Part shown: piece after piece, positions 2,182 through 23,942 of the stretch
How positions within the stretch are numbered: the first letter of the stretch is position 1
How the letters are laid out: every line of letters starts with the position of its first letter
DNA from: a virus
Strand: one strand, 5' to 3'
IMG/VR virus record: IMGVR_UViG_3300025687_004614
Location: 1 to 33,866 of that record
DNA: 33,866 nucleotides
The notes under the pieces: generated by a model
What the model was told of the DNA's origin: nothing
The model's input: the letters and a program-made list of their open reading frames with translations, nothing else
The model's database searches: none
Translations under genes and position numbers: made by a program

Positions 2182-4410
2182 ATGGAAATAGTACACAATC
2201 ACAATGCTAAGTCCCAGCTAGCCAAGTTGCTGGCTACGGAAAACATTACGGTACAGCACTCGGCCGCCGCACAAACTGCTATGTTTGATGTGGTTAAGCG
2301 TGTTCTGATTCTCCCTATCTGGCGCGAAATGTCCAATGACCTGTATGATATGCTGGTTGTTCACGAGGTTGGTCATGCTCTTGACACACCCTCTGACGGC
2401 TGGCTTGACGCATTGTCTGACATTGCAAAGCGAGTCACTGGTGCGGCTTCCAATCGTGCTATGGGTGCAGTCAAGGGCTTTCTGAACGTCATTGAAGACG
2501 CCCGCATTGACAAGCGCCAGAAGCGGCGCTTCCCTGGCTCTCGCCGCAACTATGTCAAGGGCTACGCCGAACTCATTGAACGCGACTTCTTTGGTACCAA
2601 GTCCAAGGACGTTAACTCTATGGCTTTCATTGACCGCTTGAATATCTACTTCAAGGGCGGTGCAATGTCTGGTATCAAGTTCTCGGCCGAAGAAAAGGCA
2701 ATGGTCGCTAAGGTTGAAGCGGCTGAGACTTTTGATGAGGTGCTTGCACTCACCGAGGAAATCTTCGGTTGGTCTAAGTCTAAGCAGGAACAGGACGAGC
2801 CTGAAACTGACTCGGACGATATTCGTGCTAAGGGTGGAATGTCCGACGAGGACGACTATGACTTTTCCGACGAGTCTGATGAGGAAGATTTCGGCGATGA
2901 TGATGAGGAAGAAAACTATACCTCTGGTCGCGGCGATGACGACTCTGATGATGAGGAAGAGGACGATGGTGAGTCTGACTCGGACGACACCGAAGCTGGT
3001 GACGGCGATGACAAGCGCGACTCTGATGATCCGATAAACGTCGGTGCAAAGTCTGATGATGACATTCCCGAGTCTGAAACTGAAAAGGCTTGGCAGAAAA
3101 ATCAGGAAGACCTTGTCATCAAGTCGGACGAGGAATATGTTTACGTCAAGATCCCTCGCCCTGTCAAGTATGAACAGGTTGTAAATGATTACAAGATTGT
3201 TCTTGCTGACCAGCGCAAATGTATTGCTGGCTTCTGGAACCAGGATTGGCTCAAAGCTGTTCGTGAGGAACTCCAGAAGTTCAAGGCTAATGAAAAAGCT
3301 TCAATCTCTTTCATGGTGAAGGAGTTTGAGATGCGGAAATCGGCTGATGAGTACAGCCGCACTAGCATCTCCAAAACTGGTGTGATTGACACAAACAAGC
3401 TTCATTCATACAAGTATAATGATGACCTGTTCCGTCGTATCACCACTGTTGCTTCTGGTAAGAACCACGGCTTTGTCATGTTCATTGACTGGTCTGGCTC
3501 CATGGACATTCATCTTAAGAAGACTGTAAAGCAGCTTCTTTCGCTGACCATGTTCTGTAAGCAGGTTCAGATTCCGTTTGAAGTCTACTCATTCCGTAGT
3601 ACCACTGGCTTTGATGTTGATGAGGGTCGTATCAACGGCGCTTCGTTTACTCAGAACCAGAATGAACTGTACTTTGACAATTTCGTGGCTCGTAACTTGC
3701 TTTCATCGCGGATGAATGTTGCAGAATTCAATGACGCAATGTTCCATCTGTATGTGATGGCTTGTAATGGGCATCTTCGGTGTGACAGTCTCCAGTCCAC
3801 TCCGCTTAACGAGTGTATTGGTGTAGCTGACATGATTGTCAATCGGTTCAAGGCTAAGTCTCGGGTTCAGATTGTTAACACAATCTTCCTGACTGACGGT
3901 GATTCTGATCCAATTCACATGGTTCACGGTTTGCATTCGTCTTGGAAGAAGCGCAAGTATATTCTTCAGGATGATATCACCAAGAAGACTTATGAGATTC
4001 GGTCTGAGATTAAGAACTCGTATTATCATCGGGACCCTTACTCTGATAAGGCTATGACTGGTTTGCTTCTCCGTGTTCTCAAGGACCGGACTGGCTGCAA
4101 TCTGATTGGCTTCTACATCACCTCGTATGGCTTCAATCAATCTTACAGCCGTGTCAACGGTCAGTCTGGTGAAGCTTACAAGAAAGCTTCGGCTGATTGG
4201 AAAACAAACGGGTTCTTCAGTGCAACTACCTCTGGTTACGATGAATACTATATCATCAACCAGAAGACGTTTGATGTTTCGACTGGAAATCTTAACATCA
4301 AGTCCGATATGACCAAGAAAAAGATGGCATCGGAATTCATCAAGTTTTCGGAAAAGAAAGCTGTGTCCCGCGTTCTACTCTCTCGGTTTGTCAAGCGAAT
4401 TGCCGCTTGA
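2182..4410 (+). CDS. CobT-like protein: HExxH metallopeptidase-like N-terminus plus VWA domain
   Basis: A 742-aa protein with three recognisable parts. Near residues 56-72 is VVHEVGHALD, a HExxH zinc-metallopeptidase motif, followed by an IEDARID segment that could supply a further ligand. Residues of about 200-310 are a low-complexity Asp/Glu/Ser-rich linker. The C-terminal half is a von Willebrand factor A domain with the MIDAS motif DWSGS (D436, S438, S440). This arrangement matches CobT-like partners of MoxR/CobS AAA+ ATPases, and the CobS-like ATPase is the next gene. In cobaltochelatase the pair is a metal-insertion chaperone, but no cobalamin genes are present here, so in a phage the target is unknown. 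It has its own promoter and a GAGGA ribosome binding site. Codon use is richer in C-ending codons than in the flanking genes. Confidence 0.85.
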   Translation: MEIVHNHNAKSQLAKLLATENITVQHSAAAQTAMFDVVKRVLILPIWREMSNDLYDMLVVHEVGHALDTPSDGWLDALSDIAKRVTGAASNRAMGAVKGFLNVIEDARIDKRQKRRFPGSRRNYVKGYAELIERDFFGTKSKDVNSMAFIDRLNIYFKGGAMSGIKFSAEEKAMVAKVEAAETFDEVLALTEEIFGWSKSKQEQDEPETDSDDIRAKGGMSDEDDYDFSDESDEEDFGDDDEEENYTSGRGDDDSDDEEEDDGESDSDDTEAGDGDDKRDSDDPINVGAKSDDDIPESETEKAWQKNQEDLVIKSDEEYVYVKIPRPVKYEQVVNDYKIVLADQRKCIAGFWNQDWLKAVREELQKFKANEKASISFMVKEFEMRKSADEYSRTSISKTGVIDTNKLHSYKYNDDLFRRITTVASGKNHGFVMFIDWSGSMDIHLKKTVKQLLSLTMFCKQVQIPFEVYSFRSTTGFDVDEGRINGASFTQNQNELYFDNFVARNLLSSRMNVAEFNDAMFHLYVMACNGHLRCDSLQSTPLNECIGVADMIVNRFKAKSRVQIVNTIFLTDGDSDPIHMVHGLHSSWKKRKYILQDDITKKTYEIRSEIKNSYYHRDPYSDKAMTGLLLRVLKDRTGCNLIGFYITSYGFNQSYSRVNGQSGEAYKKASADWKTNGFFSATTSGYDEYYIINQKTFDVSTGNLNIKSDMTKKKMASEFIKFSEKKAVSRVLLSRFVKRIAA

Positions 4411-6013: not shown

Positions 6014-6042
6014 TTGACACCCTCAAAAAGGGATGCTATATA
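6014..6042 (+). promoter_or_regulatory. sigma70-type promoter embedded in a terminator
   Basis: TTGACA (6014-6019), 17-nt spacer, TATATA (6037-6042). The -10 box lies in the loop of the terminator hairpin at 6025-6064, so transcripts starting here at about 6049 contain only the 3' arm and cannot form the terminator. It drives the glycosyltransferase and dNMP kinase genes. Confidence 0.85.
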
Positions 6043-6064
6043 GTTCTGTAGCGTCCCTTTTTTT
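6025..6064 (+). terminator. Intrinsic terminator overlapping a promoter
   Basis: Stem AAAAAGGGATGC / GCGTCCCTTTTT (12 pairs including one T-G wobble), 14-nt loop, then a run of T residues to 6064. It would end transcription coming from the winged-helix gene. Confidence 0.82.
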
Positions 6065-6079
6065 ATCATGGAGTATACA

Positions 6080-6973
6080 ATGCAACTACAAATAAAAGTA
6101 GAAGATTTGAGAAAGACAAAGCTATTCGTGGCTACGCCAATGTATGGCGGACAAAATGTTGGTATGTATATGAAAGCTTGCCTTGATCTTCAAGGCATTT
6201 GTATGCAGTATGGCATTGAAATTCGATTCTCTTTTCTATTCAATGAATCTCTAATCACTCGCGCACGAAACTATCTTGTTGACGAGTTCTTGCGCTCAGG
6301 TTATACACATTTACTCTTCATCGATTCTGATATTCATTTTGATCCTAACGATGTTCTTGCGCTTATTGCTTTGAACAAAGATGTTATCGGTGCACCTTAT
6401 CCAAAGAAGTCCATTAATTGGAAAAACATTGCAACAGCAATGGCAAAGAATCCAACAATCACTCCAGGTGAGTTGGATGCATTAACTGGTGATTATGTGT
6501 TCAATCCAATTCCAGGAACAAAGCAGTTCAAGGTAACTGAGCCTCTTGAAGTCATGGAAATCGGAACAGGCTATATGCTCATCAAGCGTGAAGTGTTTGA
6601 GAAGTTCGCTCAGGCTTATCCTAAGCAGAACTATAAGCCTGATCATGTCGGACAGGCTAATTTTGATGGTTCGCGTTACATTCATGCGTACTTTGATACA
6701 GTCATTGATAATGGATATACATTTGATGATGTCCATGCGCTTATGGAAAAAGCAGCAAAGGGTGATGCTGTTCAAGAGGAATTCACAAAGCTTCTTGAGA
6801 TTGAAAAGAATGCATCCCATCGCTATCTTTCCGAAGACTACATGTTCTGTCAGTATTGGAGAAAGATTGGCGGTTCAATCTGGTTGTGTCCGTGGATGAA
6901 GACTCAACATGTCGGCACATATGCTTTCACTGGTAACATGCAGAAGATCGCAGAACATACAGGAAATCTATAA
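6080..6973 (+). CDS. Glycosyltransferase-like protein (GT-A type)
   Basis: Predicted glycosyltransferase of 297 aa. After an N-terminal strand LFVATPMYGG there is the acidic metal-binding motif THLLFIDSDIHFDPNDV (a DxD-type motif), then GAPYPKKSINW. This pattern is common in uncharacterised glycosyltransferase-like proteins of T4-like aquatic phages. I chose the ATG at 6080 rather than 6068 because GGAG lies 6 nt upstream of it. The gene is the first in a short transcription unit started by the promoter at 6014. It overlaps the dNMP kinase start by one base. The acceptor could be glycan or modified DNA; the sequence does not say. Confidence 0.7.
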   Translation: MQLQIKVEDLRKTKLFVATPMYGGQNVGMYMKACLDLQGICMQYGIEIRFSFLFNESLITRARNYLVDEFLRSGYTHLLFIDSDIHFDPNDVLALIALNKDVIGAPYPKKSINWKNIATAMAKNPTITPGELDALTGDYVFNPIPGTKQFKVTEPLEVMEIGTGYMLIKREVFEKFAQAYPKQNYKPDHVGQANFDGSRYIHAYFDTVIDNGYTFDDVHALMEKAAKGDAVQEEFTKLLEIEKNASHRYLSEDYMFCQYWRKIGGSIWLCPWMKTQHVGTYAFTGNMQKIAEHTGNL

Positions 6974-16462: not shown

Positions 16463-16963
16463 ATGACTATCAACAAAATTCCCTATTTTGATCCTTTCTC
16501 TTTCTCCAAGCTTAACACAACAGTTGGTTTTGAACCAATGCTTAAAAAGCTTGCGGAAATTTCTGAAACACTTCCCAAGATGCAGACTTATCCTCCATAC
16601 AACATCAAACAAGTTGATGAGAACAAGTATGTGATTGAAATGGCCGTTGCTGGCTTTGGTCGTCACGATCTTGAACTTGAACTTCAAGATGGCGTTTTGA
16701 CCATCAAAGGTTCACTAACATCCGACGAGGGTGAGTATCTTCACAAGGGAATAGCAGATCGTGCGTTTACCCGCAAGTTTACTCTTGCTGATACAGTGGA
16801 AGTCAAGAATGCAGACTTGATCAATGGTATGCTCAAGATTTGGCTTGAACGCTTCATTCCTGAAGAGAAAAAGCCAAAGAAGATCAACATTGGTGAAGCT
16901 GAAACTGCACATAACGGTGAGCCGACTAAGCAGTTTCTATCTGAGAAGTATGGTGAAAAATAA
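16463..16963 (+). CDS. hsp20: Small heat-shock protein, Hsp20/IbpA family
   Basis: A 166-aa alpha-crystallin-type chaperone that would hold unfolding proteins during infection. The domain starts at YPPYNIKQVDENKYVIEMAV (about residues 43-62), followed by GFGRHDLELEL, GVLTIKG, EYLHKGIADRAFTRKFTLAD, and ends with the conserved stretch NGMLKIWLERFIPEEKKPKKI. This is closest to proteobacterial IbpA-like proteins; Hsp20 genes are common in T4-like aquatic phages. The gene has its own promoter and an AGGAG site. Its TAA overlaps the ATG of the next small ORF. Confidence 0.93.
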   Translation: MTINKIPYFDPFSFSKLNTTVGFEPMLKKLAEISETLPKMQTYPPYNIKQVDENKYVIEMAVAGFGRHDLELELQDGVLTIKGSLTSDEGEYLHKGIADRAFTRKFTLADTVEVKNADLINGMLKIWLERFIPEEKKPKKINIGEAETAHNGEPTKQFLSEKYGEK

Positions 16964-17159: not shown

Positions 17160-17170
17160 CACTATATACT
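17125..17170 (+). promoter_or_regulatory. Candidate phosphate-responsive promoter upstream of pstS
   Basis: Three CTG-containing repeats at a 12-nt period: CTGACGA (17125), CTGACTG (17137), CTGGTCA (17149). They are followed by TATACT at 17165-17170. No good -35 box lies 17 nt upstream (TGGTTA), as expected of an activator-dependent promoter. Pho boxes are CTGTCAT repeats at an 11-nt period, so the match is imperfect. Confidence 0.35.
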
Positions 17171-17196
17171 GAGGGAGAATGAACTCCCTCAGTTTT
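17168..17196 (+). terminator. Intrinsic terminator overlapping the pstS -10 box
   Basis: Perfect 10-bp stem ACTGAGGGAG / CTCCCTCAGT, 6-nt loop, then TTTTCATT. It would end transcripts from hsp20. The last three bases of the candidate -10 box (TATACT) fall in its 5' arm, so pstS transcripts would lack that arm. Confidence 0.85.
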
Positions 17197-17211
17197 CATT
17201 ATGGAGAGACT

Positions 17212-18180
17212 ATGAATAAAATTATGTTATCTTTAGCTGCTGCTTTGTTTGCTTTTGGTACAAGCACAGCATATGCATCCCGTGATCAAATCCGTATCGT
17301 CGGATCATCTACAGTTTATCCCTTCACAACTGCCGTAGCAGAACAGTTTGGTAAGAAGACTGGTTCTAAGACACCAATCGTTGAATCAACTGGTACTGGT
17401 GGCGGTTTCAAGTTGTTCTGTGCTGGCACTGGCGAAGGCCATCCTGACGCAACAAATGCTTCACGCGCAATCAAGGAAGTTGAACTTGAAGACTGTAAGA
17501 AGAATGGTGTAACTGTTACAGAACTTGCAGTTGGTATTGACGCAATCGTGTTGTCAAGAGCAGCATCAAATGATGATATGTCATTGACAACTGAAATGCT
17601 TTATAGATCATTAGCTAAGTGGGTCATCGTTGATGGTGAAATCGTAGATAATCCATACAAGACTTGGGCAGATGTTGATTCTTCACTGCCTGCTATTAAG
17701 ATTGAAGTTCTTGGACCACCGCCAACTTCTGGTACACGCGACTCGTTTGTCGAGTTGGTAATGGAAAAGGAATGTAAGGCTGCTATCAAATCTAACGCAC
17801 TTACTGTTACAGAAGACGAAGAAAAGTCTCTTTGTAAGTCAATGCGTGAAGATGGAGCATTCATTGAAGCTGGTGAAAATGACAACATAATCGTTAACAA
17901 GCTTCAATCTAATCCAAACGCTTTCGGCATTTTTGGTTATTCATTCCTTGATGAGAACCGTAGTTCATTAAAGGGTGCTACAATCAATGGTGTTGTTCCT
18001 GAGTATGAAAGCATTAAGTCAGGAAATTATGCTATCTCTCGTCCGTTGTTTGTGTATTTTAAGAACGAACACTTTGATGTAATTCCAAATCTTCGTGAGT
18101 TTATGGAAGAGTATAAGAGTGAAGATGCAATCGGTGAAGAAGGCTACTTGACTGAAAAGGGCCTTATCTCTCTAAACTGA
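17212..18180 (+). CDS. pstS: Phosphate-binding periplasmic protein PstS
   Basis: A 322-aa phosphate ABC-transporter substrate-binding protein. Residues 1-22 are a Sec signal peptide (MNKIMLSLAAALFAFG, then cleavage after AYA). The mature protein starts SRDQIRIVGSSTVYPF, and the phosphate-binding STGTGGGFKLFC and NASRAI segments follow. Phage-borne pstS is known from cyanophages and pelagiphages and is thought to keep phosphate uptake running in starved hosts. The start is at ATG 17212 (GGAGA 6 nt upstream), not the upstream in-frame codon at 17179. It is monocistronic between a terminator and a promoter/terminator unit. Confidence 0.94.
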   Translation: MNKIMLSLAAALFAFGTSTAYASRDQIRIVGSSTVYPFTTAVAEQFGKKTGSKTPIVESTGTGGGFKLFCAGTGEGHPDATNASRAIKEVELEDCKKNGVTVTELAVGIDAIVLSRAASNDDMSLTTEMLYRSLAKWVIVDGEIVDNPYKTWADVDSSLPAIKIEVLGPPPTSGTRDSFVELVMEKECKAAIKSNALTVTEDEEKSLCKSMREDGAFIEAGENDNIIVNKLQSNPNAFGIFGYSFLDENRSSLKGATINGVVPEYESIKSGNYAISRPLFVYFKNEHFDVIPNLREFMEEYKSEDAIGEEGYLTEKGLISLN

Positions 18181-18182
18181 TA

Positions 18183-18211
18183 TTGACATTACAGAGAGGA
18201 TGCTATATACT
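18183..18211 (+). promoter_or_regulatory. sigma70-type promoter of the glycan cassette
   Basis: TTGACA (18183-18188), 17-nt spacer, TATACT (18206-18211). The -10 box lies in the loop of the terminator at 18193-18226. It is the only strong promoter seen ahead of the 10.5-kb cassette. Confidence 0.88.
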
Positions 18212-18226
18212 AGTGTCCTCTCTTTT
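18193..18226 (+). terminator. Intrinsic terminator after pstS, overlapping a promoter
   Basis: AGAGAGGA / TCCTCTCT stem (8 bp), 15-nt loop holding the -10 box, followed by T residues (the last T of the stem plus three more, then ATTATA). It ends pstS transcription while new transcripts start inside it. Confidence 0.82.
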
Positions 18227-18240
18227 ATTATAGGTATATT

Positions 18241-18996
18241 ATGAAACTCATTATTGAAAGATCGGTTGTCGTTATCACACCCACTATCGGTTCCCAAAAA
18301 CTCAAAGATGCTGTCCTCAGCGTTCAAAAGCAAACATATTCTAATCTTGAACATTTGATTGTTGTAGATGGATATGAGTATGAAGATCCTATGAATGATG
18401 CTCTACGTGCCGCTTGGCAAGAAATGCCAGATGGTAATGAGCGATTGCCAATGGCAATGGTTCTTCCATTCAATACAGGCGCAAATGGATTCTATGGTCA
18501 TCGCATCTATGCTGGTATTCCTCATCTAGTCAATGCTGATTATGTCTTCTTTCTTGATGAAGACAACTGGTATGAACCAAACCATGTTGCTTCACTTGTA
18601 GAAGTATTAGATCGTGATAATGACTTTGCACATTCACTTCGTAAGATTTATCAACCAGACAAGACATATGTGTGTGATGATAATTGTGAAGCACTTGGTA
18701 AATGGCCGATCTATTTCTCACACAATGATCCACAATATCTTGTAGATACATCTTCGTTCGCGTTCAATAGAAAATTTCTAGAAAAGACTTGTCACTTATG
18801 GCATTCTGGCTGGGGTGGTGATAGAAGATATCTATACTCTGTCATGCAGAATGCAAAGTGGGATACAAGTCGTAAGCACACACTATGCTATCGTCTTGAT
18901 GGAAATCCTGGTTCAGTAACTGCTGATTTCTTTATCAAAGGCAATGAAGAACAATTGAAACATTATAATGGAGAACTGCCATGGCTAAAAATCTAA
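18241..18996 (+). CDS. Family 2-type glycosyltransferase
   Basis: A 251-aa GT-A glycosyltransferase. It shows the GT2 opening VVVITPTIGSQKLKDAVLSV (residues 9-28), LEHLIVVDG with the nucleotide-binding Asp, the metal-binding motif VFFLDEDNWYEPNHV (about residues 101-115) and a possible acceptor-side GGDRRYL. It is first in the glycan cassette, 30 nt downstream of the promoter core. The donor and acceptor are not evident. The 3' end overlaps the next gene by 16 nt. Confidence 0.85.
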   Translation: MKLIIERSVVVITPTIGSQKLKDAVLSVQKQTYSNLEHLIVVDGYEYEDPMNDALRAAWQEMPDGNERLPMAMVLPFNTGANGFYGHRIYAGIPHLVNADYVFFLDEDNWYEPNHVASLVEVLDRDNDFAHSLRKIYQPDKTYVCDDNCEALGKWPIYFSHNDPQYLVDTSSFAFNRKFLEKTCHLWHSGWGGDRRYLYSVMQNAKWDTSRKHTLCYRLDGNPGSVTADFFIKGNEEQLKHYNGELPWLKI

Positions 18997-22793: not shown

Positions 22794-23942
22794 ATGGACA
22801 TCGTTGTTAGAAAGAAGAATGAAAAAAAGTATTTCTGGGCAAAGTATTATCTCGAATCCAAGACAACTCTTTTAGAAGCAGCGAAAGAACTTGCTATTGG
22901 ACAAAGCATCGGTAATCCAAACGCACGAAGCGTTTGGGAAACACAAGAAATGTATGACAAACATACAGCTAAAATTTTGAAGACTGATGAGTTCAATAAC
23001 AAGTCTGGACATGTATGGATTGGTTTTCCTTATGCTAATATCAATTGGAAAACTGATGGTATTGCACATCTGATTTGTATGCTTATGGGCGGGCAAATGG
23101 ATATTGATAACATTACAGCATGTCATTTAATCGATCTTGAAATTGATACAAAGAAGACAGACTTCAAAGGACCTCAACATGGCATTACTGGTATGCGAGA
23201 GTTTACAGGATCGCACAACAAGCCACTGTTTGGAGGTATTGTAAAACCTAAGACAGGAATGAGCCCTCAACAGCTTCTTGATATGGTCAAAGAAATGGTT
23301 GAGGGTGGTGTTGATTTTATCAAAGAAGATGAAATCATGTCAAACCCTAAAGTTTGTCCACTAAAAGATCGTGTTCCTCTTATTGCTGAATATCTGAAGA
23401 ATAGTGATAGAAAAGTTGTTTATACTTTCTGCATCAATGGTGATCCTGATACTATAGCAAAGAAGGTAAAGTTCATTGCAAAGTATAATGATGAATATGG
23501 TGGTCTTGGTATTCATATCAATATCTGGTCAGGTCTTGGATCATACAAGACTATAAGAAATATGAATTCAGGTCTTTTCATTCACTATCAAAAGAGTGGT
23601 GATAAAGTTCTAACAGAGAAGACACATCGCTATCATATTGATTGGTCTGTACTCTGTTATCTCGCAGGACTTTGTGGCGTAGATACTATTCATGCAGGAA
23701 TGATTGGTGGATATCTCAGTGATGATGAAGAAGAAATGAAGAATGTCATTCGTGTTCTTCATCAACATAATGTTGTACCTGCTCTGTCGTGTGGTATGAA
23801 ACCGGATCTTGTTCAACCAATTTCCAATATTGTTGGTGTTGATTGGATGGCAAATGTTGGTGGATATATTCATTCACATGAAGGTGGCACAAAAGCAGGA
23901 TCACTTGAAATGCGTAAAGCTGTGGATGCTATAACAGTATGA
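22794..23942 (+). CDS. RuBisCO-like protein (large-subunit superfamily, form IV-like)
   Basis: A 382-aa protein of the RuBisCO large-subunit superfamily. The N-terminal domain shows AKYYLESKTTLLEAAKELA and HVWIGFPYANINWKTDGIAH. The barrel starts FGGIVKPKTGMSP with K151 and K153 (spinach K175, K177), then GGVDFIKEDEIMSNP with K177, D179 and E180 (spinach K201, D203, E204, the carbamate/Mg site). H300 in DTIHAG fits H327, S332 fits S379, and GG at 356-357 fits the phosphate loop. By eye, T173, R295, K334 and N123 are replaced, and the N-terminal TW motif is absent. So it is probably an enolase/isomerase/decarboxylase-like RLP on a sugar phosphate, not a CO2-fixing enzyme. It lies between a nucleotidyltransferase and a GDPD-like gene. 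Confidence 0.88.
   Translation: MDIVVRKKNEKKYFWAKYYLESKTTLLEAAKELAIGQSIGNPNARSVWETQEMYDKHTAKILKTDEFNNKSGHVWIGFPYANINWKTDGIAHLICMLMGGQMDIDNITACHLIDLEIDTKKTDFKGPQHGITGMREFTGSHNKPLFGGIVKPKTGMSPQQLLDMVKEMVEGGVDFIKEDEIMSNPKVCPLKDRVPLIAEYLKNSDRKVVYTFCINGDPDTIAKKVKFIAKYNDEYGGLGIHINIWSGLGSYKTIRNMNSGLFIHYQKSGDKVLTEKTHRYHIDWSVLCYLAGLCGVDTIHAGMIGGYLSDDEEEMKNVIRVLHQHNVVPALSCGMKPDLVQPISNIVGVDWMANVGGYIHSHEGGTKAGSLEMRKAVDAITV

Follow-up and report, generated by a model that had tools for sequence, protein, structure and literature searches.

Here we report that a 33,866-nt stretch of viral DNA (IMG/VR record IMGVR_UViG_3300025687_004614, hereafter called the window) carries, at two gene junctions, an element in which a sigma70-type promoter overlaps a terminator-form hairpin, and that this element is very probably a composite terminator/promoter of the PeSL (promoter early stem-loop) kind in a T4-like phage. 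This reading is based on the anatomy of the element, its conservation at orthologous junctions, compensatory changes in the stem at the second junction (site 2) and a geometry shared with elements of phage RB49; that transcription ends and starts here, where precisely it starts and that it does so early are deduced from the sequence. PeSL-type punctuation would thus be extended to a large uncultivated T4-like clade, where the element lies at the border of a phosphate-uptake module that some phage genomes have and others lack.

Anatomy of the two copies

Copy 2 occupies the interval that follows the stop codon of a pstS-like gene and precedes the start codon of a glycosyltransferase gene. The features of this region are:

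17168..17193, + strand: plain terminator ahead of pstS, with CTATATACT immediately before it and no -35 hexamer
17179..18180, + strand: PstS-like phosphate-binding protein, upstream of copy 2 (Pfam PF12849, 2.4e-37; phrog_5385)
18183..18188, + strand: -35 hexamer TTGACA of copy 2
18193..18223, + strand: terminator hairpin of copy 2, with a 13-bp stem and a 5-nt loop, enclosing the -10 (from folding and ortholog covariation)
18198..18209, + strand: core GGATGCTATATA, common to copies 1 and 2
18206..18211, + strand: -10 hexamer TATACT of copy 2, TATAAT in several orthologs
18213..18240, + strand: predicted leader of copy 2's own transcript, with the 3' arm only, then an AGG Shine-Dalgarno sequence
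18224..18231, + strand: T-rich tail TTTATTAT, 3' of the copy-2 hairpin
18241..18996, + strand: glycosyltransferase family 2, with which the downstream glycan operon begins (Pfam PF00535, 5.6e-9)

As the preliminary description had proposed, TTGACA and TATACT are separated by a 17-nt spacer, forming a near-consensus sigma70 promoter (11/12), and complementary arms (AGAGAGGA at 18193-18200 and TCCTCTCT at 18216-18223) are followed by T residues, in a tail that is interrupted (TTTTATTAT). The RNA fold has an energy of -18.5 kcal/mol (z -5.9). The -10 had been placed in the loop of the hairpin. The T-tailed hairpin itself stands, but the -10 does not lie wholly in the loop: positions 18193-18205 pair with 18211-18223, including two G-U pairs, and this 13-bp stem leaves just TATAC unpaired, so that part of the -10 is in the loop and part in the stem.

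Copy 1 (6014-6066), built to the same plan, lies ahead of a second glycosyltransferase-like gene:

6014..6019, + strand: -35 hexamer TTGACA of copy 1
6025..6062, + strand: terminator hairpin of copy 1 (from folding), with a T tail reaching ~6066
6037..6042, + strand: -10 hexamer TATATA of copy 1, at 17-nt spacing
6080..6973, + strand: gene 3' of copy 1, glycosyltransferase-like (phrog_1574; weak Anp1 match)

The copy-1 RNA fold is the stronger of the two, at -21.7 kcal/mol (z -6.3) vs -18.5. The window contains two copies of the core GGATGCTATATA (6031-6042 and 18198-18209) and no third on either strand. A shared core in one and the same geometry had been claimed; the duplication holds, but the register relative to the -35 differs, the core starting 11 nt after TTGACA in copy 1 and 9 nt after it in copy 2. 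Because of this shift, the hexamer found at 17-nt spacing is TATATA in the first copy and TATACT in the second. By eye, contigs that carry both copies gave no sign that the two evolve in concert within a genome.

ATG 6080 is the preferred start of the phrog_1574 gene, owing to a GGAG just upstream; the program-made start at 6068 is probably wrong, and the GGAG site overlaps that earlier ATG. Upstream of pstS, the stretch 17160-17193, comprising CTATATACT and the pre-pstS terminator, resembles half of a composite that lacks the -35; the 167-kb relative G001, ~91% identical over long stretches, has CTACATACT. Further upstream lies a gene for an Hsp20-family small heat-shock protein (16463-16963).

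Chance occurrence

Second-order shuffles of the window, totalling 10.16 Mb, gave rise to 347 promoters matching at least 11/12 consensus positions, and in none of them (0/347) was the -10 covered by a T-tailed hairpin. A looser detector returned 0 or 1 matches per 267 kb control sequence. Promoters of this quality (>=11/12) number 26 in G001 vs 6.3 in its shuffles, and 8 in the window vs 0.33 expected. A chance origin of the element is ruled out by the shuffles together with its conservation at orthologous junctions.

Conservation at orthologous junctions

Scanning IMG/VR for the pattern brought up the composite in at least nine contigs beyond the window's own copies; most of the matches listed were chance promoters without a hairpin. 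Relatives were collected through their neighbouring genes, and the junction upstream of each glycosyltransferase was taken regardless of whether it carried the element. At site 1, a T-tailed hairpin with a CTATAT core was present in 63 of 77 orthologous junctions. At site 2, 40 of 72 junctions had a T-tailed hairpin containing TATA, including every one of the 36 in which pstS lay upstream. The preliminary description had held that the copies represent a repeated regulatory cassette and that a lack of further copies in relatives would speak against it; these abundant copies, the covariation described below and the analogous elements of phages RB49 and GEC-3S sustain that view.

Nine of the 12 distinct site-2 orthologs have an exact TTGACA, and in five the hairpin encloses a 12/12 promoter. 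Both sides have changed in 7 of the 13 stem pairs, and 96.8% of cells remain paired. The covariation score is 0.638, vs 0.408 in shuffles (0/500); slid versions reach no more than 0.371. Since the stem is compensated while the -35 and -10 are kept, selection acts on the same 45 bp at site 2 for the hairpin and the promoter alike.

The pattern at site 1 is different in one respect. TTGACA is exact in only 9 of 29 distinct orthologs, and about half have four or fewer of the six bases, while the hairpin and the CTATATA core persist even where the -35 is degraded. It follows that promoter strength at site 1 may vary or be partly lost, or that the core may have another role. This degradation is one ground for regarding the element as an ordinary intrinsic terminator, its promoter likeness being the incidental resemblance of an AT-rich loop to a -10; another is that a lone terminator suffices in G001. 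We consider this quite unlikely, given the retention of the site-2 -35 and -10 over a changing but compensated stem and the absence of any such hairpin over the chance promoters of the 10 Mb of shuffles. Also, the loops of most other terminators in these phages are unrelated to this one.

A T-rich tail directly follows the stem in nearly all orthologs. This, together with the predicted lack of the hairpin from the element's own leader, argues against a hairpin that serves in the mRNA, stabilising its 3' end or structuring its leader, instead of ending transcription. Some of the RB49 promoter/stem-loop composites do lack a T tail, and to that extent favor an mRNA element; on balance we judge it very improbable.

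Relatives with more divergent glycosyltransferases have a plain hairpin or none at the site-2 junction, so the element is not essential. In a more distant set (L344-L367), a CTAAATA late-type motif and then a hairpin lie upstream of the site-2 glycosyltransferase, with no nested promoter. In three other contigs (L322, L323 and L339), an apparent tRNA gene is found upstream of this glycosyltransferase.

In all IMG/VR contigs, a 19-base core was confined, but for one unrelated match, to this pair of junctions, and the window and genomes G001-G006 have one or two copies each. Broad mobility of the cassette is thereby ruled out: its repetition is real at two fixed junctions and does not extend widely through the genome. 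A bacterial origin was also rejected, as the core had five matches in 84,980 genomes and no T-tailed composite was seen there by eye. Three of the five adjoin the gap (GAPDH) gene of Secundilactobacillus (L293, L294 and L297), where GTGATACTATATA(C/T)TAGTGTCGC stands just upstream of gap, after CTGACA.

The pstS module

Across these related phages, pstS behaves as a presence/absence module and is missing in different ways. The gene-content indel is bordered by the element, pstS being present or absent exactly at the site-2 junction. In G001 both pstS and the element are missing, and the plain pre-pstS terminator stands directly before the glycosyltransferase gene; four contigs (L298, L317, L318 and L331) lack pstS and retain the element. 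The edges of the module, at the preceding terminator and the copy-2 element, thus coincide with predicted transcription signals.

Both this coincidence and the two patterns of absence would be expected if the stem-loop were chiefly a recombination site, with exchange from one PeSL to another moving the pstS module and transcription being secondary. However, the few junctions that were read lie just outside the hairpins: that of L317 at a short TAACTA repeat beside two stop codons, and that of G001 at two start codons. Furthermore, each genome has only two similar copies, at fixed sites. A primary role in recombination therefore seems decidedly improbable.

Promoter class and proposed mechanism

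Upstream of G001 genes, enrichment is seen for ATAAATA and CTAAATA, which correspond to the canonical T4 late promoter. It could be argued that the CTATATA core is itself a T4-type late promoter, read by a phage sigma factor without a -35 and set within the terminator, and the retention of the site-1 core where the -35 is lost would fit such a role. However, a TATAAATA-type -10 was not found, the core being CTATATA, which is not the motif enriched in G001; more distant glycosyltransferase orthologs have CTAAATA at this junction. Since the late motif of the clade is (A/C)TAAATA, we regard a late promoter at the core as extremely unlikely.

Under the composite terminator/promoter reading, polymerase arriving from pstS would copy both arms, and the 13-bp RNA hairpin with the U-rich RNA behind it would end transcription. 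Host sigma70 RNA polymerase would bind TTGACA-17-TATACT in the same DNA and start at ~18213-18218, ~7 nt past the -10 and inside the 3' arm. Because of this start position, the new transcript would lack the 5' arm, form no terminator and read into the glycan operon; predicted leaders with this start are no more stably folded than shuffled sequence. In this manner ~45 bp would both close one transcription unit and open the next.

A more elaborate proposal is that the element acts as a switch: early in infection, polymerase on the nested promoter would block or sharpen pstS termination, and after displacement of host sigma70 the DNA would serve as a terminator only, or be read through. We think this unlikely; if true, one 45-bp element would couple the timing of pstS and the glycan module.

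Relation to known systems

Other T4-like phages are already known to have promoter-in-terminator elements. PeSLs of the T4-like phages RB49 and phi1 were reportedly described by Arbiol et al. in 2010 and Comeau et al. in 2014, and we take the promoter/stem-loop composites that we find in RB49 to be these PeSLs. RB49 has ~21 such composites in three layouts: the -10 between the arms, a hairpin in the spacer (nine times), or a terminator just upstream. The element at 3201 (minus strand) consists of TTGACA, an arm, TATAAT, the second arm and TTTT, and is present in 58 phage records. The spacer-hairpin layout is also seen in G001 at 79470-79560 (L222), after cobS, where the spacer of a perfect promoter, TTGACA-17-TATAAT, is filled by the hairpin GAGGGAC-TAT-GTCCCTC.

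The present elements share with the RB49/phi1 PeSLs a T4-like genome, a strong sigma70-type promoter fused to a stem-loop terminator, a -10 between the arms, and a position adjoining variable, non-core genes. That the genome is T4-like is indicated by a phrog_459 peptidase and cobS-type genes, which are nearest those of T4-like cyanophages and pelagiphage HTVC008M, and by the (A/C)TAAATA late motif in G001. The promoter is strong in the window (11/12) and in several site-2 orthologs (12/12), and at site 1 in only part of the orthologs. The stem-loop has terminator form and overlaps the promoter with the geometry of RB49 and GEC-3S. By predicted structure, then, the present elements are PeSLs, in a sparse and position-fixed form: the many similar copies per genome that are typical of PeSLs, though perhaps not obligatory, were absent from the window and G001-G006. 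In contrast to the ~21 composites of RB49, there are one or two copies here, at two fixed junctions that are both ahead of glycosyltransferase genes, with no sign of exchange between them and in phages of an uncultivated host. PeSLs have been described as mediating the shuffling of genes among T4-like phages (PMC4503421).

Phage GEC-3S (HE978309), which carries the RB49 3201 element, provides an annotated parallel, in which a terminator (3164-3191) overlaps a promoter (3175-3202) so that the -10 (3175-3180) falls inside the terminator; its sequence and its genes are different, the element following the topoisomerase large-subunit gene. The cyanophage pstS is likewise flanked by promoter and terminator signals of its own (PMC3037559); that paper finds no single regulatory solution, and the passages drawn on here mention no nested promoter-terminator. 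Additionally, halovirus HGTV-1 combines a promoter motif (TATA-box) with an inverted repeat, which its authors likened to PeSLs, but the promoter and virus are archaeal and the motif stands before most left-end genes (PMC3950731).

A RuBisCO-like gene in the glycan operon

Within the phage glycan operon, the window encodes a RuBisCO-like protein of 382 aa (22794-23942, + strand; Pfam RuBisCO_large, 7.7e-33), for which the nearest solved sequence is 2cwx (E 5e-32). In the alignment, the K-x-D-E motif is retained (KEDE) and the loop-6 lysine is apparently absent, a combination that suggests a form IV-like enzyme. None of 50,697 phage records matched the protein. At the DNA level, the region is conserved in contig L212.
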